Below are positions 53,135 to 64,000 of a DNA stretch of 64,000 bases, in pieces (the first letter of the stretch is position 1; each line of letters opens with the position of its first letter). The stretch is from Nitrospiraceae bacterium. GTDB lineage: Bacteria; Nitrospirota; Nitrospiria; Nitrospirales; Nitrospiraceae. The stretch is from NCBI GenBank assembly GCA_035623075.1, contig DASPUC010000027.1, forward strand, positions 1 to 64,000. The letters run 5' to 3'. A model generated the notes under the pieces. That model was not told the DNA's origin and searched no databases. It worked only from the letters and a program-made list of their open reading frames with translations. Made by a program: the position numbers and the translations under genes.

Positions 53135-54589
53135 TTAGAACGGGTAATCTAGACCTACGAAGACGTTAGTCCCATCGCGTCCATACCCGATGTCCAGTCG
53201 ACCGACGACATTGGGGCGAGCGAGCATCCGAAGGCCGACGCCGGGGTTCACTTGGAGATTCGTGAAGGACTTGGTGCCGAAAGTGTCATACACCCGTCCA
53301 ATGTCCATAAAGGGAGCGGCTTCGAAACTGATCGGGTGGTCAAATATTCGTTTTTCCAGGACGGGGATCCGTTCTTCAAAATTGACGAGGAGCGCATTCT
53401 CATCGATAAACCGACCCTGACCAAACGCTCGTAACGTCGTCTCTCCACCCAACGTAGGCTCTTCATAGAACGGCACGCCCGGCCCGCTGATCGAATCCAT
53501 ATAGGCATGGGCCGCAAAGACAAGCCCGGGCCCGTGGGGAACCAGCTGCCGTGCATCAAACGAAAACCGCCACCACTGGTTTTTCCCTGAAAGCTTCAAA
53601 TTCTGATTGAACTCGGCTGAGACATTAGCATAACTGCCCTGCGTCGGGATCAATTGTTTGTCCCGTGTATCATAGCGAAGCGAGAGTTTGTGCCCCACGA
53701 TCTGTGCTCCATCGATTCCAGTGACGTTGGGGAAAGCCACGCTCGTTTGTGGCAACGAGTTCACCGCTCCCTGATCGACTCGGACATCGTGATAGCGTTC
53801 GGTCCACATGAGGGCAAAGTCCGAGGTGAGATTGATGCCGGCGGTCAACTCTACAATGGCCTCTCGTGAGGTGTAATTGGTCTCGTCGCTTTCCGGAGTA
53901 GTGTTCCCGATACCGAAAAACCGGCGAAAGGCGTTCTTGAACCAATGGATGTCTGCCGCAATGATGTAGCGGCCTCCGCCAGCCGCGACGTTCTTGTAAC
54001 TCAAGTCGAAGTCTCGCTCGATCTTCGTCGCGTACGAGGCCACCGCATGATAGGTCTCGGTGTCGGACGGATATCCGTAATAGTTGAGCGACAACGTCTC
54101 GCCAATGTATTGGTTGTGCAGATATTGGGGGGCGATAATATCTTTGACTTCATCATTCCCAGTCGATCGTAGTACCGGCATCAAGGCTCCAACCCAGTAC
54201 TTCTCGTTCCGGTTATAGGAAAAGGCAGGAAGCGGGATGTAGGTATACTCACCAGCGAGAGGTACGGACTTCAGGGCCTCTTCTTTGCCTTCGGCTTGCT
54301 TGGCCTCAGCGCGCTCATATTCCGTTTCTGCAACTGGCGAGGGGTTCTGTCGCGGATGAAGAGGACCGATGAATTCGGACGCAGCATCCGACTTGGTCTC
54401 AGCTAAGGAGTAATCGGGCAACAGAAGCAGTGAGCAGAACACTGTGAACAGGCGAGCCAGTCTACCCAGGGCACAAACAGACTCGTCCCAACCCAACTCT
54501 CGCACGGTCGGTGTGAAATGTGCTGTAAGGAGGAGACGAAGGTACCAAGGAAAGGGCCAGACGAGACTTTGACTGCGACGCCGGAACAC
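53135..54589 (-). CDS. Outer-membrane surface antigen, D15/BamA-like beta barrel
   Basis: 484 residues. After an export segment (LARLFTVFCSLLLLPDYSLA) the mature part is strand-rich, with SLRYDTRDKQLIPTQGSYANV, LGGETTLRAFGQGRFIDENAL, FEAAPFMDIGRVYD, and the terminal GLDYPF ending in Phe as barrel proteins do. These are Bac_surface_Ag (D15) features; no POTRA repeats are evident, so it resembles a TamA/PatA-like standalone barrel. The true start may lie inside the first 45 residues. Confidence 0.8.
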   Translation of the reverse strand: MFRRRSQSLVWPFPWYLRLLLTAHFTPTVRELGWDESVCALGRLARLFTVFCSLLLLPDYSLAETKSDAASEFIGPLHPRQNPSPVAETEYERAEAKQAEGKEEALKSVPLAGEYTYIPLPAFSYNRNEKYWVGALMPVLRSTGNDEVKDIIAPQYLHNQYIGETLSLNYYGYPSDTETYHAVASYATKIERDFDLSYKNVAAGGGRYIIAADIHWFKNAFRRFFGIGNTTPESDETNYTSREAIVELTAGINLTSDFALMWTERYHDVRVDQGAVNSLPQTSVAFPNVTGIDGAQIVGHKLSLRYDTRDKQLIPTQGSYANVSAEFNQNLKLSGKNQWWRFSFDARQLVPHGPGLVFAAHAYMDSISGPGVPFYEEPTLGGETTLRAFGQGRFIDENALLVNFEERIPVLEKRIFDHPISFEAAPFMDIGRVYDTFGTKSFTNLQVNPGVGLRMLARPNVVGRLDIGYGRDGTNVFVGLDYPF

Positions 54590-55108: not shown

Positions 55109-56026
55109 TCAGTTCAACCATACTTGGCGGAACCAGTCAACGGTTCGTCTTAGCCCCTCCTCGAATGACACCGTCGGATACCACGCAAGTTCCTGTCGCG
55201 CCTTTGTGGCTGTGACTTCCTTGCCGTCGAAGTCGCCGGGCCGTGCTGGTACGAATTCGAGCTTCACGTCATCGCCAAGTAGCTTCTTGATCCCCTCGGC
55301 TACTTCAAGAACCGTCACTTTCCTCGTGCCCTCAAGGTTGTAGGTCTGGTTCACGGCCTTGTCTTTCATCGCAAGCACATGGGCTTCGGCCATGTCACGC
55401 ACATAGACAAAGTTGCGATACTGTTCGCCCTTGCCGGAGATCGTCAGCGGCTGGCCGTTCAACGCTTTCTTGATGAAAGCGGGAATCAGAAGTTCTTCGC
55501 GCATGCGCGGGCCGTAGGGAATGCCGTACCGCAGAATTGTAAACGGTACCTTATACAGTTGAGCATAGTTGTGGCAGACCATTTCGGCTGCCATTTTCGT
55601 GGACGTGTAGATATGGCCGGCACCTTCCAAGTAGAAGGGAACAGTTTCGTCCACCGGTTTACCGTTGGGCGCGCCGTTATAGACCCACACAGTCGAAGCC
55701 AAGTGAACACGCTGGACTTCATTGATCCTCGCAGATTCAAGTATGTGGGTCGTGCCCATCACGTTCAGCGCTGTGGAATACACCGGATACTTGTACGCAT
55801 AGTTCACATTCGACACAGCGGCTAGATGAAAAATATGCTCAACTCCCTTAGTGGCTTCGAGGACCGACGAGAGATCCATAAGGTCCACGTCCTCGAAGCC
55901 TACGTCTGATCGATGGGGGCGTACCCTATGGTCGATCACCGTCACCCGATGTCCGGCATCCATCAGGGCATCGACGACATGGGATCCGATGAACCCACTG
56001 CCTCCAGTGACAACAACCTTTGCCAT
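55109..56026 (-). CDS. NAD-dependent epimerase/dehydratase
   Basis: 305-residue extended short-chain dehydrogenase. NAD loop TGGSGFIGSHVVDALMDAGH, the serine region ASTVWVYNG, the catalytic pair in HIYTSTKMAAE and RYGIPYGPRM are intact. It is the last gene of the minus-strand block carrying hpnI-K-J, 19 bases after the aminotransferase. Together they could make an amino-sugar or modified sugar nucleotide. A paralogue lies at 59662. Confidence 0.85.
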   Translation of the reverse strand: MAKVVVTGGSGFIGSHVVDALMDAGHRVTVIDHRVRPHRSDVGFEDVDLMDLSSVLEATKGVEHIFHLAAVSNVNYAYKYPVYSTALNVMGTTHILESARINEVQRVHLASTVWVYNGAPNGKPVDETVPFYLEGAGHIYTSTKMAAEMVCHNYAQLYKVPFTILRYGIPYGPRMREELLIPAFIKKALNGQPLTISGKGEQYRNFVYVRDMAEAHVLAMKDKAVNQTYNLEGTRKVTVLEVAEGIKKLLGDDVKLEFVPARPGDFDGKEVTATKARQELAWYPTVSFEEGLRRTVDWFRQVWLN

Positions 56027-56045
56027 ATTGAGGTCTCCTTTTTGG

Positions 56046-57239
56046 TTAACCGACGACGGCTTTCAATGCATGGACGACGTGCTGTGCGTCTTCCTCCTCC
56101 ATACCGGAAAAGACAGGCAGGCAGAGGTGCCGCGCACAATAATCCTCAGCCATAGGAAGCGACTCTGACACGTACCCGGCAAATACCGGTTGTTTGTGAA
56201 GCGGCTCTTCGTAGACCTCGCCGGCCAGCGAGATGCCGTATTTTTCGCGCAACAGGGTCTTCAAGGCTTTGCGATCCTGCCTCTCTTTGAGCACGACGAG
56301 GTACTTGTAATAATTGCAGATCCCTTGAGAAGGGACTGCCACGGTCGTCAGGTTTCTGAAGATCCGCAATTCACGGTCATAGACGGAGGCAATTTTCTGG
56401 CGATCGTTGATCATCGCGGGCAAACGTTCGAAGTGCTTGAGTCCGATAATGGCGTGGGGCTCAGACATCCGCCAGTTGTACCCCATACGAATGTGGGCAT
56501 TTTGTGTAAAGCTGGCTTTTCCTTGGTCCCTATAAATGCGGGCCTCTTCGGCAATGCGAGCGTCGTTCGTCACGATCATGCCTCCCTCTGCCGAGGTCAT
56601 GACCTTCGTGGGATAAAAACTAAAAGATGCGGCGATGCCGAATGCACCGGCACGGACGCTGTTTAACGACGACCCATGCGCATGGGCCGCATCCTCGACC
56701 AGCCACAAGCCTTTTTGGGTCGCCCATCGCTGCAACTCAGGAAGGCGGCGGGACACGATGCCTCCAATGTGCACGACAATCAGGCCGGCGGTCTTGTGTG
56801 TCAGCTTCTCCTCGAGGTCTTCCGGCCGCACAGCAAATGATTCGGGGTCCATGTCCACGAGAACCGGATGCCCGCCGGCGTGAATGACAGCAGCCGCTGT
56901 AGCAAAAAATGTGTTGGTGGGCACCAGGACGTCCTTGCCCTCAACTGCGAGTGCCCGAAGGATGATTTCCAGCGAGCTGGTGCCGCTGCTCACGGCGATC
57001 GCGTGGTTTGTCCCGCAGAACTGGGCGAACTTCTGTTCGAATTCGGCTCCGTATTTCCCGAGCGTCAATTGGCCGGTGCTCAGGATCTCCTGAATCCGTT
57101 CCGCGATCCAGGCGCGGTCTTCAGGCAGAAACTGAATCTTCGCAGCGGGGACTTTCCTCGTTTGTCCCGCCCCGCCGTCTTGGCGTGCCAGCCCGTTCAC
57201 GGATGGGCGCGGGCTGTGTGTCTGCTTCAGAGTTTGCAA
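56046..57239 (-). CDS. DegT/DnrJ/EryC1/StrS-family sugar aminotransferase
   Basis: 397 residues, PLP-dependent. Blocks FAQFCGTNHAIAVSSGTSSLEI, VLVPTNTFFATAAAVIHAGG, LVEDAAHAHGS and the Schiff-base lysine in SFYPTKVMTSAEGGM are typical. RMGYNWRMSEPHAIIG and LPVFSGMEEEDAQHVVHALK close the protein. Family members aminate keto-sugars on nucleotides or occasionally other carbonyls. In this operon the substrate could be a nucleotide sugar passed to the hopanoid or another lipid. The gap to the small membrane gene upstream is 84 bases. Confidence 0.92.
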   Translation of the reverse strand: MQTLKQTHSPRPSVNGLARQDGGAGQTRKVPAAKIQFLPEDRAWIAERIQEILSTGQLTLGKYGAEFEQKFAQFCGTNHAIAVSSGTSSLEIILRALAVEGKDVLVPTNTFFATAAAVIHAGGHPVLVDMDPESFAVRPEDLEEKLTHKTAGLIVVHIGGIVSRRLPELQRWATQKGLWLVEDAAHAHGSSLNSVRAGAFGIAASFSFYPTKVMTSAEGGMIVTNDARIAEEARIYRDQGKASFTQNAHIRMGYNWRMSEPHAIIGLKHFERLPAMINDRQKIASVYDRELRIFRNLTTVAVPSQGICNYYKYLVVLKERQDRKALKTLLREKYGISLAGEVYEEPLHKQPVFAGYVSESLPMAEDYCARHLCLPVFSGMEEEDAQHVVHALKAVVG

Positions 57240-57323
57240 ATGATCACCGCTCCTTTCTCATTGACCGACCTTGGGTTCTTCAAAATACCAGGGAAGGTCG
57301 CCTCCTCCAACCACTGTTTCCTT

Positions 57324-57692
57324 CTATGGAATGGCTACCAATCCGACACCCAGGCAGACGAGCATGGTCCCGGCCCACCGGTGGGCGGAAATCGTTTCTC
57401 CCAGGATAAACTTGGCCCCGAGCGTCCCGACCACATAGACCATCGCGGTGGCGGGGAACACAAAACTCAAATCGGCCCAGGAGAGCACGATCAGAAATCC
57501 GGTCAAATGCAAGGTCATAAACAGCATGCTCGCTAGAACGTGATGATTGGAGAGCGCCCTCAGCGCGACGGTCAGTAATTCTCGAGGAGCAAAGCTGGTA
57601 ACTTCGCCGATCTGTCTCATGCCCTTCGTCAGGAAGACGTCCGCCGCCGCATCTGCCAGCACGATGATTGCAATCATTAACGCCGTGATCAT
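57324..57692 (-). CDS. SMR/EamA-like four-helix membrane protein, second of a pair
   Basis: 122 residues from the ATG at 57692, which overlaps the stop of the paralogous gene before it (ATGA). Four membrane helices: ALMIAIIVLADAAADVFLTKG, LASMLFMTLHLTGFLIVLSW, SFVFPATAMVYVVGTLGAKFIL, and WAGTMLVCLGVGLVAI. Half the size of a full EamA transporter; the coupled pair recalls ArnE/ArnF, which flip undecaprenyl-phosphate-aminoarabinose. A similar heterodimer moving a lipid-linked or hopanoid product is a reasonable inference. Confidence 0.82.
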   Translation of the reverse strand: MITALMIAIIVLADAAADVFLTKGMRQIGEVTSFAPRELLTVALRALSNHHVLASMLFMTLHLTGFLIVLSWADLSFVFPATAMVYVVGTLGAKFILGETISAHRWAGTMLVCLGVGLVAIP

Positions 57693-58138
57693 CGGTCGAC
57701 CTCCTCCCATGCCACGACAGGCCCACGTTCAATACCGAAGGTGCGTGGGGAGGACCTCACGACGAGCACGACGCCGACTGAAATCAGGACCACTCCGAGC
57801 CAACGAGTCGCGGAGACCGTCTCCTGCAGGAAGTAGTTCGCACATGCCACATTCACAACGACTTCGGAGGAGATAGCTGGCAGCACGAAGCTGAGGTCCG
57901 CGCGAGACAGGGTGGTGGCGAAGAGCACGAAAAAAATGATCAAGAACCCCACTCCGAACGGAATCGACGGAGTGTCGACTATCCGTAGGAGAACCGCTAT
58001 CCAGTCGCTCCAGATTATGGGGCTCACCTCTGAGATGGATTTCATCCCCTGGCTCAGGAGCACGTTGCCGATCGCTTGACTCACGATTGCGATCCCCAGA
58101 AGCGCGATGATTTCAGTCCGCTCACTCCACGTGCGCAT
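57689..58138 (-). CDS. SMR/EamA-like four-helix membrane protein, first of a pair
   Basis: 149 residues from ATG 58138 (AAGGA nine bases ahead; the frame opens at 58156). Four helices: IIALLGIAIVSQAIGNVLLSQ, GVGFLIIFFVLFATTLSRADL, FVLPAISSEVVVNVACANYFL, and WLGVVLISVGVVLVV. LSRADLSFVLPAISS parallels LSWADLSFVFPATAM of its neighbour, so the two are paralogues, probably forming one antiparallel transporter. It follows hpnJ by about 60 bases. Confidence 0.82.
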   Translation of the reverse strand: MRTWSERTEIIALLGIAIVSQAIGNVLLSQGMKSISEVSPIIWSDWIAVLLRIVDTPSIPFGVGFLIIFFVLFATTLSRADLSFVLPAISSEVVVNVACANYFLQETVSATRWLGVVLISVGVVLVVRSSPRTFGIERGPVVAWEEVDR

Positions 58139-58198
58139 CGTCGAACATCCTTTCAACTACGCTTCCTCTCGTGTTTTCAGCCGAGCCACTCCGCAAAC

Positions 58199-59647
58199 TC
58201 AGGACCCCGGGGATCCAGCGCTCACCTGAGCGCGGACAAACCCCTTTCGCTTGGCGCGCACCTTGAGAAATTCCTTGGCCTCGACGTACAGGCGACGCCG
58301 ATCGTGACTATTAAAAAGGGCTCGACGAAGAATTCGGAAAATGACGTGCGGCCGGAAGTAGTACCGATCGTAAAATTGCTCGACCGCGTGCATGATCTCT
58401 TTTCTGCTTAAGCCCGGATACTGAAATACGGGAAGCTGATGTCCCTCCTCATCGGTCATGACGTGGTCGACCGAATAGTTGTGCTTCTTTAAGTAGGTAT
58501 CGAACTCGGTCCCGGGGTAGGGGTGAGACATCGATACCTGGATCGTCTCCGGGTCCAGCTCCATGGCGAATTGGACGGTTTGCTCGATCGTCTCTTTCGT
58601 CTCCCCTGGCAGTCCGACCTGAAAGTCACCGTGCACCACAAGCCCTAATTCCTTGCAGTGCTTCATGAACTGCCGAGCCTGCTCGACGGTCGCGCCCTTC
58701 TTGATGTTCGTTAGGATATTCGCATTGCCTGATTCGAATCCGACGATCAGCAAGCGGCAGCCTGCTTCCTTCATTGCCTTGAGGGTCTCGTACCCCGCCG
58801 TCACCCTGGAATTGCACGACCAGGTGAACTTCAGCGGCTTCAATGCTTTGCATAAGTCGATGGTCCGGTCCTTGGCCCAAGGGAAGGTGTCATCGTCAAA
58901 AAAGATCTCCTTCGCCTGCGGGAAATATTCGAGACACCGCATGACTTCCTCCACTACGTTCGGAATGCTGCGGGTCCGCCAAGGGTGGCCGCTCATCGTC
59001 TGCGGCCAGAGGCAAAATGTACACAGGGCCGGGCAGCCACGCGAAGTGTAGAAGGCGACATACGGATGCTTCAGGTAAGGGATGTTGTAGCGAGTAATGT
59101 CCAGGTCTCGTTTGTAGACATCGACGGCAAACGGCAAGGCATCGAGATCTTCAATGGATGGACGATCCGGATTATGAATAATCTGTCCGTCCTGTCTGTA
59201 GCTGATGCCGGCGATTTCTTCTAACTTCCTGCCGGAGGCATACTCTGCAAGGGGGTAGTCGAATTCCCGCCGAACCACAAAATCGATGGCAGGAGAGGTC
59301 TTGAGGCTCTGTTCCGGTTGAATCGTCACATGAGGACCGACAAAGGCGATCTTGATCCTAGGGTTCGCCTCTTTGATCATTTGAGCGAGTCGTATGTCGC
59401 TCTTAAACCCCGGCGTGCTGGTAAAAAGTGCGAGAAACTCGTAGTCCTTGGCGATTGCGACCGTCTCCTCGGGACTCACGCCGTGCGAAGGAGCATCCAG
59501 CAGTCGACTGTCTTGAATCATGCCGGCAGAATAGGCGAGCCACACCGGATACCAGAATGAGGGAATCTCTCTGGTGGCCTGATAGCGCGAACTGGCTCCC
59601 CCGTCGAACATGTCGAATGAAGGAGGATTAAGCAGTAACGTCTTCAT
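58199..59647 (-). CDS. hpnJ: Hopanoid radical SAM enzyme HpnJ
   Basis: 482 residues. An N-terminal B12-binding-like domain begins MKTLLLNPPSFDMFDGGASS and REIPSFWYPVWLAYSAGM, the typical HpnJ opening. The radical SAM cluster motif is C205-x3-C209-x2-C212 (RGCPALCTFCLWPQ), followed by EIFFDDDTF, ESGNANILTNIKKG and GDFQVGLPGETKETI. HpnJ converts the glucosamine head group of bacteriohopanetetrol glucosamine to the cyclitol ether. hpnI and hpnK of the same pathway are upstream in the same operon, which strongly supports the call. Confidence 0.9.
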   Translation of the reverse strand: MKTLLLNPPSFDMFDGGASSRYQATREIPSFWYPVWLAYSAGMIQDSRLLDAPSHGVSPEETVAIAKDYEFLALFTSTPGFKSDIRLAQMIKEANPRIKIAFVGPHVTIQPEQSLKTSPAIDFVVRREFDYPLAEYASGRKLEEIAGISYRQDGQIIHNPDRPSIEDLDALPFAVDVYKRDLDITRYNIPYLKHPYVAFYTSRGCPALCTFCLWPQTMSGHPWRTRSIPNVVEEVMRCLEYFPQAKEIFFDDDTFPWAKDRTIDLCKALKPLKFTWSCNSRVTAGYETLKAMKEAGCRLLIVGFESGNANILTNIKKGATVEQARQFMKHCKELGLVVHGDFQVGLPGETKETIEQTVQFAMELDPETIQVSMSHPYPGTEFDTYLKKHNYSVDHVMTDEEGHQLPVFQYPGLSRKEIMHAVEQFYDRYYFRPHVIFRILRRALFNSHDRRRLYVEAKEFLKVRAKRKGFVRAQVSAGSPGS

Positions 59648-59661
59648 CGGTCTCTCCTCTG

Positions 59662-60645
59662 TCAGACGCGAAGTTCCCGTGTGCCTGTGATGGCAGACTG
59701 CTCACTGAGGTGAGCGCATCGCATGAACGCGATGGTTTCCTGGAGACCGCGAGCCAGGCCGTATCGAGGCTGGAAGTGGAGAAAACGTTTCGCCTGTCCG
59801 ATATCCGCTTGATCGTGTGGCAGATCCCCCGGCTGACGCGGCCCGTAATGGGGGGACAGGTTTGTACCCAGCAAGATCTGAAGTTGAGCATAGAGCTGAT
59901 TGATTGTCGTACACCGGCCTGTCCCGATGTTGAGCGCTTGCCCCGAGAGGCCGGGAATCTCACAGGCAGCCAGCACGGCCGCCACGCAATCACCGATGAA
60001 GGTGAAATCGCGCGACTGCTCCCCATCTCCGTAGATGGTCGGAGCTGTCTCTGCCAGGAGAAGGGAGATAAATTTCGGGATCACAGCGGCATAGGTTGAG
60101 GCGGCGTCTTGACGAGGGCCGTAGACATTAAAAAACCTCAAACAGACCGTCTCCAACCCATAGAGGGTTGAGAATAGCTGGCAGTAGTATTCGCCGGCTT
60201 GTTTTGTCGCGGCATAGGGAGAAGAGCTGGGAGCGGGGGTCATGGTTTCGATTCGAGGGATTGCGGGGTTCTCCCCGTACACCGCGGACGATGACGCGAA
60301 GACAAACTTTTTCACTCCGGCCCGCCGCGCGCCAAGGAGCAGATTCAGGGTCCCTGTGACGTTCACGTCGTGGGTCTCCATCGGGCATTCGACAGAGCGC
60401 ACCACTTCATGTAGAGCGGCCAAATGGACGATCGTGGCTACTCCATCAAGAATCTCCGGATACCGACTAGCATCTCGGACATCGCCTTCGATGAGTTCGA
60501 TGTCACGGTCAAAAGGCGCAAGATTCTCCCGTTTTCCGGTAAAGAAGTTGTCCAAGACTTTGACGCGCTCGCCCCTCTTCACAAGCGCCTCAGTCACATG
60601 CGAGCCGATAAAGCCTGCTCCGCCGGTCACCAAATACGTTCGCAT
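59662..60645 (-). CDS. NAD-dependent sugar epimerase/dehydratase inside the hpn block
   Basis: 327 residues from ATG 60645. NAD loop YLVTGGAGFIGSHVTEALV, the serine block FASSSAVYGENP, the catalytic pair in SPYAATKQAGEYY, then RFFNVYGPRQDAAS and GDGEQSRDFTFI: UDP-glucose 4-epimerase / UDP-GlcNAc-epimerase style (WbpP-like). It lies between hpnK and hpnJ, 14 bases before the hpnJ start, so it probably supplies the sugar donor for HpnI or a later step. This gene is not part of the standard hpnI-K-J trio. Confidence 0.88.
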   Translation of the reverse strand: MRTYLVTGGAGFIGSHVTEALVKRGERVKVLDNFFTGKRENLAPFDRDIELIEGDVRDASRYPEILDGVATIVHLAALHEVVRSVECPMETHDVNVTGTLNLLLGARRAGVKKFVFASSSAVYGENPAIPRIETMTPAPSSSPYAATKQAGEYYCQLFSTLYGLETVCLRFFNVYGPRQDAASTYAAVIPKFISLLLAETAPTIYGDGEQSRDFTFIGDCVAAVLAACEIPGLSGQALNIGTGRCTTINQLYAQLQILLGTNLSPHYGPRQPGDLPHDQADIGQAKRFLHFQPRYGLARGLQETIAFMRCAHLSEQSAITGTRELRV

Positions 60646-60685
60646 CGTCCCTCCCAGCCGATCATCCGAAGAACAGCCTCTCCGT

Positions 60686-61537
60686 TCACAACTCGTCAAA
60701 CGCAACCCGCTGACATCCGGCGGTTGCCACTGCTTGTTTCACCGCCGGACTCGTGAGTGCCTCAAACTCCTGCTCGTTCAAATAGCCAGGCATGGCCTGG
60801 TCAAGCTCCGCACACCTCCTGGTCGCCGGATGGCAATATATTTCCGTGACCCCGTCCGGGAGCTCTCGCAGAATGCGCAGCAAGAGTTCCCGATCGAGGT
60901 GACCTGTATCGTTCAGACCAAAAACAAAATCGTTGCAGCGGATCCCGGCGAGTTTCATCCTCGCTTTAAGGAGTACGATCCAGGGGAAAAGGAACGTCCA
61001 GCCTCCGAACTTGCGCAACAGTCCCTGCCTGGACGCGCGCCACGAGGGCAGGGGTGGTTCATAGGGAAGTCGCATCGCTCGTAAGCCAAATTCTCGTCCG
61101 ACCTTGAGGATTAGTCCGAGGACAGTGGGATGAAGATGCAAATGGTTGTGTCCATTCACATGGTCGAGAGGAAGCCCCGTGTCGTGGAACGCCTGAAACT
61201 GCGCTCGGATTTCCGCTTCTAACTGACGAAGCAAGTCCTTCTCGAAAAAATATTTCAACCCAACTAAAACGGGGTCCGGCAAGAACTCACCCTCCTCATC
61301 CACAAGATCAGGAATGTTCCGTTTCGGGAGTACAGCGCGACCATCCACCAACACCAGATGCAGCCCGACTCTTAACGAACCGAGCCGTTTGGCTCGTGCA
61401 ATTGCATCCTTGGCGGCCTCGGCTCCAACCATCAGACTGGCCGACGTGAGGATGCCATTGCGATGGGCCTCCTCAATGGCTTCATTGACCGGGACGGCAA
61501 GCCCGAAATCGTCTCCGTTGACGATGAGCTTTTTCAC
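60686..61537 (-). CDS. hpnK: Hopanoid deacetylase HpnK (YdjC/ChbG family)
   Basis: 283 residues from GTG 61537, which overlaps the hpnI stop (GTGA). VKKLIVNGDDFGLAVPVNEAI carries the metal-binding Asp pair; RVGLHLVLVDGR and DHVNGHNHLHLHP supply the histidines of the YdjC-type deacetylase. HpnK removes the acetyl group from the N-acetylglucosaminyl hopanoid made by HpnI, giving bacteriohopanetetrol glucosamine. Length matches the family. The operon position directly after hpnI supports the name. Confidence 0.9.
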   Translation of the reverse strand: MKKLIVNGDDFGLAVPVNEAIEEAHRNGILTSASLMVGAEAAKDAIARAKRLGSLRVGLHLVLVDGRAVLPKRNIPDLVDEEGEFLPDPVLVGLKYFFEKDLLRQLEAEIRAQFQAFHDTGLPLDHVNGHNHLHLHPTVLGLILKVGREFGLRAMRLPYEPPLPSWRASRQGLLRKFGGWTFLFPWIVLLKARMKLAGIRCNDFVFGLNDTGHLDRELLLRILRELPDGVTEIYCHPATRRCAELDQAMPGYLNEQEFEALTSPAVKQAVATAGCQRVAFDEL

Positions 61538-62703
61538 AAGGACGCCTCTTGAGGAATCATGCGTCCATCCTTTGTCAGAATGTACTTTTTGCCGCGCCAC
61601 ACCGCAGTCTTTTGCGTCAACGCCAAGATCAATGAGACCAGACCTGCAATGTCTCTGAGAGGAAGCAGCAGAAGGGTCTTGAGACCCTCACGGTCGCCGA
61701 GGCCGGATGTAAGCATCCCGGCAGCCGTTGTCAGGCGCAACGCGACTGCTCCTCCGAGCACGAGCAATCCGAGTGGATCGGCCAATCTCAGGATGGCAAA
61801 GAGAAACGCAAAAGGGATCGGGCGAATGATGAGCGTCGAGGTGAGAGCACCGGGTCTCACGATGCAACTGTTTTGATCCCAGTAGACCTGATGACTCCAC
61901 CACTGAGAGGGAGACTTCAGATCGACCACAGTGTCGACCACGTAGGGCGCTACCGCAGCTTTCTTGCCTTGTTCCCATATGCGGCGCCCCATTTCATAAT
62001 CTTCGACCAAATAGTCGGCGAGACTTTCCAAACCACCGATGCTTTTCAAGATGGAACGTCGAAAGGCGACCGACGACCCGATGCAAAACTTTGCTGTCTT
62101 GGTCACATACGCAAAGACCGTGTCAGGAAAGAAACAGGCATTCATCGTGAGCAGTTCCATTTTTTCGAACCACGATCCCGCCGACATCGCTTTAAAAAAC
62201 GTGCAGACGAACCCAACGTCCGGATCATCCAGGGGGGCGACGATCGCCATCAGGTAGTCGGGGCCTACATGAACATCGCTATCGCTGATCACCAAAATCT
62301 CGTGGCGCGCATGGGCCACCCCGCCGATCAGATTATTGATCTTGCCGTTGGTTCCTACTTGCCGATTGTCAATGACGACGGTGACCCGTTCTGAGCCGTA
62401 TTCAGATTGAAGGGTTCTCAAAAGAGGAATCGCAGGGTCATTCTCATTCTGTACAGAAAAGACGACTTGATAGTTTGGATAGTCTTGCGCGCAGGCGCTG
62501 CGGAGGTTCTTTTCCAGATGCTTCTCGAGTCCGTGCACTGGTTTCAGAATCGTGACAGGTGGCCAGCCACGTTTTGGGATTCGAGGAGGGGCTGTAGCAC
62601 GTCCTCGAGCGATCAGGACACAATCCAGGCAGGCAAGGTAATAAAGCGACCCGACAACGACCGGAATCAGGCAAGCCCACTCGAGAAGGGAAAGTCCGTA
62701 CAC
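61534..62703 (-). CDS. hpnI: Hopanoid glycosyltransferase HpnI
   Basis: 389-residue membrane GT2/GT21-type transferase resembling ceramide glucosyltransferase. N-terminal helix (LLEWACLIPVVVGSLYYLACL), VTILKPVHGLEKHLEKNLRS, the metal-binding DSDVHVGPDY, the catalytic region LVEDYEMGRRIWEQG, and QWWSHQVYWDQNSCIVRPG (QxxRW-like position). Then two or three C-terminal helices. HpnI attaches N-acetylglucosamine to bacteriohopanetetrol. It is translationally coupled to hpnK. Confidence 0.9.
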   Translation of the reverse strand: MYGLSLLEWACLIPVVVGSLYYLACLDCVLIARGRATAPPRIPKRGWPPVTILKPVHGLEKHLEKNLRSACAQDYPNYQVVFSVQNENDPAIPLLRTLQSEYGSERVTVVIDNRQVGTNGKINNLIGGVAHARHEILVISDSDVHVGPDYLMAIVAPLDDPDVGFVCTFFKAMSAGSWFEKMELLTMNACFFPDTVFAYVTKTAKFCIGSSVAFRRSILKSIGGLESLADYLVEDYEMGRRIWEQGKKAAVAPYVVDTVVDLKSPSQWWSHQVYWDQNSCIVRPGALTSTLIIRPIPFAFLFAILRLADPLGLLVLGGAVALRLTTAAGMLTSGLGDREGLKTLLLLPLRDIAGLVSLILALTQKTAVWRGKKYILTKDGRMIPQEASL

Positions 62704-62719
62704 CGGTTACCTCGCGAGC

Positions 62720-63469
62720 CTATTCCACATACAGTGTCAATTGGAGGCCCAAGATCATGATTCCGAGAGGCACGAAAAACGGTTTCGACCGCCACGCGAC
62801 GACCACCCGTCGCTCCAGAAGTAATCCTCCGGCGATAAAAAAAGCGGTGAGCGCAAAGATTCGGTGTTGGAGGTTCACCAGATCGAAGTCCGGATGACCC
62901 AAATGCTGGTGGATCATCAGTCCAATCCCTCCCAACAGCGCGGCACCGGCGGCCCAGTACGCTACATTCATGCTTGATGGAACGCGCCTGACGGAAATGG
63001 AGTAGACTCCGAGCAGCATGGGAATCAGGGAGAGGAGTTTGTGCTGGATCCATTCACCCGTCGTCGGCATGCTGAAGCTTTGAAGGAATCCAGCAGGGCC
63101 GATCGGCCAGCCTTCGGGATCGCTCTTGATGAACACGAACATACCGAAGGCTACCCACGTGCAACCGATCAGTATCGTGGTAAGTTCGCTGGGAAGGAGC
63201 GACAGACGGCCTAGGAGTATGAGCAGCCCTAAGGCTAACAGGGCGATGCCTGAGCTATGATGCATGAACAGCGAATAGGCAATGTCCGGATCTTCCGAGC
63301 GATCTTTGAGCAATGCGCCTCCTTGGACGGTCGGATGATGGCTCTCTTGGTCCGTTGGATGATGCATATCGGGAGCCGAGGCGTTTAACTTCGAGCCGAA
63401 GATGATGATGAAGAGTGATAGAGTTCCGAGGAAGAGAACGCTGGCAACGGCTAGCCTCATGCTCCTCAT
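62720..63469 (-). CDS. Polytopic membrane protein of unknown function, first gene of the hpn block
   Basis: 249 residues from ATG 63469. Six or seven membrane helices (LAVASVLFLGTLSLFIIIFG, GIALLALGLLILLGRLSLLP, WVAFGMFVFI, VAYWAAGAALLGGIGLMI, IFALTAFFIAGGLLL). Histidine-rich patches occur in the periplasmic-side loops (MHHPTDQESHHPT, MHHSSG, HQHLGHP), as in copper-resistance CopD-like proteins, though no family can be assigned firmly. It is 16 bases ahead of hpnI and follows a sigma-54-type promoter. Confidence 0.65.
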   Translation of the reverse strand: MRSMRLAVASVLFLGTLSLFIIIFGSKLNASAPDMHHPTDQESHHPTVQGGALLKDRSEDPDIAYSLFMHHSSGIALLALGLLILLGRLSLLPSELTTILIGCTWVAFGMFVFIKSDPEGWPIGPAGFLQSFSMPTTGEWIQHKLLSLIPMLLGVYSISVRRVPSSMNVAYWAAGAALLGGIGLMIHQHLGHPDFDLVNLQHRIFALTAFFIAGGLLLERRVVVAWRSKPFFVPLGIMILGLQLTLYVE

Positions 63470-63537
63470 TCGTGATGTGCGCCTTTGGTCACCAAGCTCA
63501 GGGGTGAATCGGCTAACAGGCGAACGAGCAAGTAAAA

Positions 63538-63553
63538 TGCAGGAACCTGGCCA
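63538..63553 (-). promoter_or_regulatory. Sigma-54-type promoter of the hpn operon
   Basis: On the minus strand TGGCCAGGTTCCTGCA has GG and GC at the exact -24/-12 spacing, TGGC and TGCA matching consensus and GG at positions 7-8. The predicted start is near 63527, 58 bases before the first gene. Confidence 0.55.
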
Positions 63554-63638
63554 CGGCACGGTCGGCAGGGACTCTATTATGATTTCAAGAAGTTACAGGG
63601 AAAACGGTGAGGGTGGTTTGAGAGGAGCCTACGAGATT

Positions 63639-63665
63639 GTCAAAAAAGTTGGATTATCGTCAAAA
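63639..63665. promoter_or_regulatory. Direct repeat, candidate activator site
   Basis: GTCAAAA at 63639-63645 and again at 63659-63665, exactly 20 bases apart (two helical turns). It lies about 110-140 bases upstream of the predicted sigma-54 start, where enhancer sites usually are. Confidence 0.35.
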
Positions 63666-63689: not shown

Positions 63690-64000
63690 TTACTTGACAT
63701 GGTCAGGGCTGGTGCCGAACGTCTTTAACTTATACTGAAGCAGGCTTCGGCTGATCTTGAGCAAATCGGCAGCCTTGGCCTGAACACCACCGGCACGGTT
63801 CAGCGCACGATCGATCATGTGGTGCTCGACCGCCTTGAGCGTGTGGTCGAGGGGGGCATCGGACGGAATGATCCGATCCAGGACATGCAACCATTCACCG
63901 CTGGCTGCTAGTTCCAAGGGAAAGTCATCCGGCTGAATTTCTTCTTGTTGGGCCATCAGCGCCGCATGCGCCACGGCGTTATGCAGCTCCCGCACGTTTC
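63690..64000 (-). CDS. C-terminal end of an NtrC-family sigma-54 activator (cut by window edge)
   Basis: The frame runs past the right edge. NVRELHNAVAHAALMA is the end of the AAA+ sigma-54 interaction domain, and the C-terminus is a Fis-type helix-turn-helix (AVEHHMIDRALNRAGGVQAKAADLL then KISRSLLQYKLKTFG). Such activators bind upstream of sigma-54 promoters and remodel the closed complex. It ends 220 bases before the membrane gene that heads the hpn operon, on the same strand, and a sigma-54-type promoter lies between. Confidence 0.9.
   Translation of the reverse strand, partial: NVRELHNAVAHAALMAQQEEIQPDDFPLELAASGEWLHVLDRIIPSDAPLDHTLKAVEHHMIDRALNRAGGVQAKAADLLKISRSLLQYKLKTFGTSPDHVK

Follow-up and report, generated by a model that had tools for sequence, protein, structure and literature searches.

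What is made by an operon in which hpnI, hpnK and hpnJ stand among genes for nucleotide-sugar-type enzymes, an aminotransferase and two small SMR-family proteins, and how does the product leave the cytoplasmic leaflet? The question is raised by the minus strand of a 64,000-nucleotide stretch of DNA (the window), which is part of contig C27; the genome measures 3.39 Mb, is 99.9% complete and has Nitrospirota as its closest named relatives. HpnI adds GlcNAc to bacteriohopanetetrol, the acetyl group is then removed by HpnK, and ring contraction by HpnJ gives the cyclitol ether. Nine close-packed, co-directional genes, all with open reading frames, occupy positions 55109-63469; in the direction of transcription, from 63469 to 55109, they are MEM, HpnI, HpnK, SDR-a, HpnJ, SMR-A, SMR-B, DegT and SDR-b. 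These and the flanking features are as follows.

53135..54589, minus strand: Omp85-family outer-membrane protein, 519 bp downstream of the run; an operon neighbour in relatives too
55109..56026, minus strand: SDR-b, extended SDR (PF01370), with 77-88% identity across Nitrospirota relatives
56046..57239, minus strand: DegT-family PLP aminotransferase (PF01041), PseC/perosamine-synthase-like
57324..57692, minus strand: SMR-B, second SMR subunit, with an ATGA overlap with SMR-A
57689..58156, minus strand: SMR-A, small EamA/SMR subunit, by its EamA match
58199..59647, minus strand: HpnJ, B12-binding radical SAM enzyme (TIGR03471)
59662..60645, minus strand: SDR-a, epimerase-type extended SDR, WbpP/TviC-like (UDP-GlcNAc 4-epimerase family), by PF01370 and motifs
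60686..61537, minus strand: HpnK, YdjC-type deacetylase (TIGR03473), with a GTGA overlap with HpnI
61534..62703, minus strand: HpnI, glycosyltransferase (TIGR03472)
62720..63469, minus strand: MEM, histidine-rich integral membrane protein, about 6 TM, without a Pfam family
63536..63555, minus strand: sigma-54-like promoter CGTGGCCAGGTTCCTGCATT (GG-N10-GC), shuffle p 0.023
63639..63665, minus strand: paired TTTTGAC-N13-TTTTGAC site, candidate enhancer for the adjoining NtrC-type regulator
63690..64000, minus strand: 3' end of the gene for an NtrC-type sigma-54 response regulator, which runs on past the window; a histidine kinase adjoins

A sequence-only reading had described a one-strand run of nine genes with short gaps and two four-base overlaps, and every element of this is in place. 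The gaps are 16 bases (MEM-HpnI), -4 (HpnI/HpnK, GTGA), about 40 (HpnK-SDR-a), 14 (SDR-a-HpnJ), 42 (HpnJ-SMR-A), -4 (SMR-A/SMR-B, ATGA), 84 (SMR-B-DegT) and 19 (DegT-SDR-b), and there is a GGAG-like ribosome site at the majority of the start codons. The same reading had named HpnI, HpnK and HpnJ correctly: all three score over their NCBIfam cut-offs, HpnI by a slim margin (320.9 bits against 310), HpnK at 378.6 bits against 232.6 and HpnJ at 736.1 against 577.6. HpnK has the GDD, HNHLH and CHPA motifs in an alignment to 2i5i. The translation of HpnJ carries CPALCTFC, the CxxxCxxC cluster motif of radical SAM enzymes, together with B12 (PF02310, 50.2 bits) and radical SAM (PF04055, 76 bits) domains, and its closest solved structure is AprD4. 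The same genome encodes SHC (C3:112180-114096, 767.5 bits) and HpnH (C3:123613-124563, 552 bits). Because HpnI, HpnK and HpnJ pass their cut-offs and SHC and HpnH are found elsewhere in the genome, the product of the operon is likely to be a glucosaminyl/cyclitol-ether hopanoid; of the two further modifications that the sequence-only reading put forward as possible, amination is plausible and additional glycosylation conceivable.

On contig C3, SHC is followed by what we take, from our own reading of the translations, to be an HpnG-like gene, an Mla-like transport set, DXS and IspG, and then by HpnH. In C3:106000-125999 (L128), genes resembling MlaE, MlaF, MlaD, MlaC and MlaA come after SHC/HpnG-like and before HpnH. 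No HpnN over the cut-off was found in the genome (best 33.1 bits against 751.85), and, with HpnN absent and Mla-like genes so placed, Mla-type transport of hopanoids is possible.

The association of HpnJ with hopanoid genes extends beyond this genome. In one phylum-wide draw, SHC is over its cut-off in nine of ten HpnJ-positive genomes against 10 of 107 others (Fisher p 1e-7). One locus (L008) has HpnJ and HpnI within an IspA-HpnJ-HpnI-SHC-HpnG-like cluster; in three others (L147-L149) a relative of HpnK adjoins SHC, and in L149 these two immediately flank an SMR gene. HpnJ is present with no SHC match in G188, and with neither SHC nor HpnH over the cut-off in G092 and G098, perhaps through incompleteness of those last two genomes. 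HpnJ-like proteins of 340-440 bits, below the HpnJ cut-off, were seen at L178-L184, some with an adjacent distant HpnI-like gene and without SMR; they are probably a sister family.

The main rival explanation is that the hopanoid is not the carrier: an Arn-like pathway would make an amino sugar linked to polyprenyl and flip it, for use on lipid A or some other glycan of the envelope, with HpnI, HpnK, SMR, DegT and SDR taking the parts of ArnC, ArnD, ArnE/F, ArnB and ArnA. Each enzyme class does have a single counterpart in the arn operon of E. coli, relatives add LtaS/phosphoglycerol-transferase-like and Omp85 proteins, and DegT and SDR-b persist without HpnJ. However, HpnI and HpnK score above the cut-offs of the hopanoid equivalogs and are not ArnC or ArnD; HpnJ is present in the window and SHC co-occurs with it; and the genome has no ArnT over the cut-off, only a 152.8-bit relative on another contig (cut-off 567). 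We consider an Arn-like envelope modification unlikely; the choice between a hopanoid and an Arn-like lipid is made from genomic association only.

If the product is a hopanoid, the SMR pair is the candidate for moving it. SMR-A matches EamA (36.5 bits, cut-off 28.2), and two small SMR subunits are encoded together within a glycolipid operon, as in the ArnE/ArnF subtype. In profile searches of 80 HpnJ loci from several phyla, all 111 SMR matches fall at most 4 kb from hpnJ (674 kb of sequence), while the other 592 kb hold none; where at least 2.5 kb downstream was available (63 loci), two SMR genes are near hpnJ in 41, one in 7 and none in 15. These loci had been picked for likeness to the window HpnJ, with 460 further HpnJ candidates outside the sample, and a second sample was therefore taken from another phylum-wide draw, consisting of 22 loci with HpnJ over the cut-off that were unselected for such likeness. 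A strong SMR match is found in 9 of these 22, mostly directly 3' of HpnK, and weak SMR pairs lie 3' of HpnI in 3, in a count that left out G085 and one further carrier. The pair is not a general requirement of HpnJ, since hpnJ has no SMR gene close by in cyanobacteria and at some further loci. The coupled transporter of the sequence-only reading is present as a linked pair, but it is not special to this operon, being common to HpnJ/HpnI/HpnK loci of several phyla.

A tree built from 114 SMR proteins, with the close relatives L002-L005 in it and the window's own pair left out, separates second-position proteins from first-position and single proteins with support of 100/98, and each side spans Nitrospirota, Acidobacteriota, Thermodesulfobacteriota, Planctomycetota and Myxococcota. 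SMR-A and SMR-B are two deep lineages, the pattern expected of an old heterodimer inherited with the pathway. Compared with E. coli proteins, the SMR profiles match ArnE at 93-95% probability, ArnF at under 10% and EmrE poorly. The SMR family takes its name from drug export, and it might be supposed that the pair exports drugs, guanidinium or polyamines to protect the cell and shares only regulation with hopanoids. Yet ArnE is the best match, and the column of the central, proton-coupling glutamate of EmrE holds Q, N, D or T, as in the lipid/glycolipid subtype, in which that residue is replaced, often by Asn (review PMC9574504); a protective exporter is very improbable. On linkage, phylogeny and motif, the SMR pair is read as probably a flippase for the products of HpnI, HpnK and HpnJ. 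HpnL (TIGR03476) was considered as a stand-in flippase in SMR-free genomes and set aside, as it showed no clean anticorrelation. At L008:11545-11763 a truncated SMR-A-like fragment lies between hpnJ and a reversed hpnI, and is perhaps a decayed pair.

The order HpnI-HpnK-SDR-a-HpnJ-SMR-A-SMR-B-DegT-SDR-b is kept in soil Nitrospirota with about 86% HpnJ identity, so the linkage is not due to chance. It is complete in L003/L131 and interrupted by contig ends in L002 and L004; the genes are rearranged in L005, and rearranged and without SMR in L006. The survey of gene order that the sequence-only reading had proposed thus finds both the linkage and the co-directional hopanoid operon with its transporter pair conserved in these relatives. 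Among the group genomes, true HpnJ occurs in only 12 of 81 (the present one included), whereas nearly all of those tested for SHC and HpnH have them. Eight Nitrospira-type loci (L132-L139, in G011, G018, G019, G025, G030, G035, G038 and G043) have HpnJ and HpnI, and no HpnK was found anywhere in the seven Nitrospira-type genomes tested for it. Instead of HpnK, their operons include a DAO-family FAD-dependent oxidoreductase and a second DegT lineage (DegT'), about 40% identical to the window DegT, in the order HpnJ-MEM-HpnI-SMR-DegT'-FAD oxidoreductase (L138 ends within SMR). Since these genomes carry HpnJ without HpnK, the textbook order of steps is not valid for all, and they cast doubt on the accepted three-step scheme.

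DegT matches PF01041 with 346 bits, and the Lys in its FSFYPTK motif is invariant in 13 aligned relatives. The two SDR proteins both match PF01370, SDR-a with the motifs S-S-S-A-V-Y-G and YAATK and SDR-b with T-V-W-V-Y-N and YTSTK. The hallmark of sugar 4,6-dehydratases is an Asp-Glu pair after the catalytic Ser/Thr. Motif inspection found this pair in neither SDR-a nor SDR-b, and the reading of SDR-b and DegT as a 4,6-dehydratase/aminotransferase pair was dropped because SDR-b lacks it. In an alignment with WbpP, the S of GDVRHSLADI is D in SDR-a, which does not settle the substrate; SDR-a may be an epimerase of a sugar donor, an assignment that we regard as tentative.

HpnJ carriers are not the only genomes with orthologs of DegT at 70 to 80% identity: G014, G049, G052, G080 and G058 have them too. 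All eight close matches among 80 relatives are at hpn loci. The first four of these genomes, Nitrospirales without HpnJ, have the order HpnI-HpnK-SMR-DegT-SDR-b, with a sulfatase/LtaS-like membrane protein 3' of SDR-b in three and also an Omp85-like gene; in G058 the contig is short, and hpnJ may be lacking because of a gap in the assembly. Since four Nitrospirales genomes keep the module although they have no HpnJ, DegT and SDR-b are not part of cyclitol-ether chemistry as such; they go with the making of glucosaminyl-hopanoids and with the putative flippase rather than with ring contraction. The idea that DegT and an SDR extend the cyclitol-ether trio has accordingly to be given up: they go with HpnI-HpnK-SMR, also where HpnJ is absent. 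An NAD SDR or an FAD enzyme stands beside an aminotransferase 3' of SMR in both arrangements, which suggests that the oxidoreductase and DegT turn an alcohol into a ketone and then into an amine on one and the same headgroup. That DegT and SDR-b are an amine-adding pair is nevertheless put at somewhat short of probable.

It could be argued that this is an ordinary cyclitol-ether trio, with the SMR pair, DegT, the SDRs and MEM as unrelated neighbours on the same transcript; DegT, SDR and SMR families are common, and cyanobacterial HpnJ occurs without them. Such a view is hard to reconcile with the confinement of SMR matches to hpnJ in the first sample and their recurrence in the second, with close DegT orthologs always at hpn loci and with the conserved gene order, and we hold it to be quite unlikely.

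MEM, whose likeliest start is the ATG at 63469, lies between HpnJ and HpnI in Nitrospira-type loci and adjoins an Omp85-like gene in L131. Foldseek gave nothing for its model (pLDDT 71) at an E-value of 0.001 or below. The best helical-bundle matches in VIA-align (a designed 6-helix barrel, a urea channel, SatP and TMEM45A) had Z of 11-13; the fold is left unassigned because these values are within the chance range for helical models. The Omp85-family gene downstream is a possible extension of the locus. In the window, the LtaS-like gene is absent and the 519 bp between SDR-b and the Omp85-like gene are gene-free. The sulfatase/LtaS-like membrane protein of relatives, of about 710-760 aa and 3' of SDR-b, is encoded at L142:6207-8417, L144:11333-13498, L145:6301-8586 and L131:13094-15232, the family scan covering the L142 copy. 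Some relatives also encode a radical SAM protein (about 362 aa) between the LtaS-like gene and MEM, at L131:15321-16409 and L146:448-1548.

The same histidine kinase-response regulator pair precedes the operon in L131, L142 and L143. The paired TTTTGAC site consists of two GTnnAA-N6-TTGAC-like half-sites 20 bp apart; TTTTGAC-N13-TTTTGAC has its sole match in the whole genome here (control pattern 0), and L131 and L143 have the pair ahead of their operons as well. A sigma-54-like element is upstream in L142 (shuffle p 0.012), L143 (0.005), L145 (0.037) and, weakly, L131 (0.196); none was found upstream in L144. The promoter p values of the individual regions being modest, regulation by sigma-54 and NtrC is a lead, and NtrC control of the operon is an evenly balanced call.

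We favour, with measured confidence, an operon that makes an amino-sugar hopanoid and exports it from the cytoplasmic leaflet, and that is probably controlled by sigma-54 and an NtrC-type regulator. HpnI would place GlcNAc on bacteriohopanetetrol, HpnK would remove the acetyl group from the GlcNAc-hopanoid and HpnJ would contract the ring to the cyclitol ether. SMR-A and SMR-B would form a heterodimeric ArnE-like flippase taking the polar-headed hopanoid to the periplasmic leaflet. DegT and SDR-b would oxidize and then transaminate, giving a further amine on the sugar or nucleotide donor, and SDR-a, by a weaker argument, would supply or epimerize the nucleotide-sugar donor. The route by which hopanoids with polar heads exit the cytoplasmic leaflet is, to our knowledge, an unsettled question, and an SMR gene pair beside headgroup enzymes makes the crossing step testable. 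If DegT and SDR-b do add an amine, the hopanoids of Nitrospira-like bacteria would include forms for which lipid surveys have not searched, possible markers of the group. A bolder proposal, which we regard as doubtful, is that an undescribed, ancient heterodimeric SMR flippase, inherited with HpnJ/HpnI/HpnK in at least five phyla, moves glycosylated hopanoids over the inner membrane, and that an NtrC-controlled DegT/SDR module in Nitrospirales adds a second amine, giving a new doubly aminated class of hopanoids.

The E. coli arn operon (arnBCADTEF) resembles the locus in combining a glycosyltransferase, a deacylase, an SMR pair, a DegT aminotransferase and an SDR, but the window has a hopanoid-type glycosyltransferase and a YdjC deacetylase for ArnC and ArnD, lacks a formyltransferase and ArnT in the operon, and has HpnJ. 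In Acidobacteria, hpn clusters with hpnI and hpnJ and without hpnK are described in part of PMC5462960, where SMR genes go unmentioned; the acidobacterial loci examined here have the order hpnJ-SMR-A-SMR-B-hpnI, without DegT/SDR-b. The literature searched, with subscription papers outside reach, gave no account of SMR genes with HpnJ and, in line with the sequence-only reading, none of the conserved operon with its transporter pair. The hpnI-hpnK-hpnJ system that makes bacteriohopanetetrol cyclitol ether (Schmerk et al. 2015, in the account given by PMC12583986) is like the present one in its three adjacent orthologous enzymes and in a genome with SHC and HpnH. Unlike it, the window adds SMR-A/B, DegT, two SDRs and MEM, and HpnN, described as a shuttle of hopanoids to the outer membrane (PMC12583986), is absent over the cut-off. 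Two points go further than the sequence-only reading: the SMR pair as a general companion, and DegT/SDR-b tied to HpnI-HpnK-SMR.
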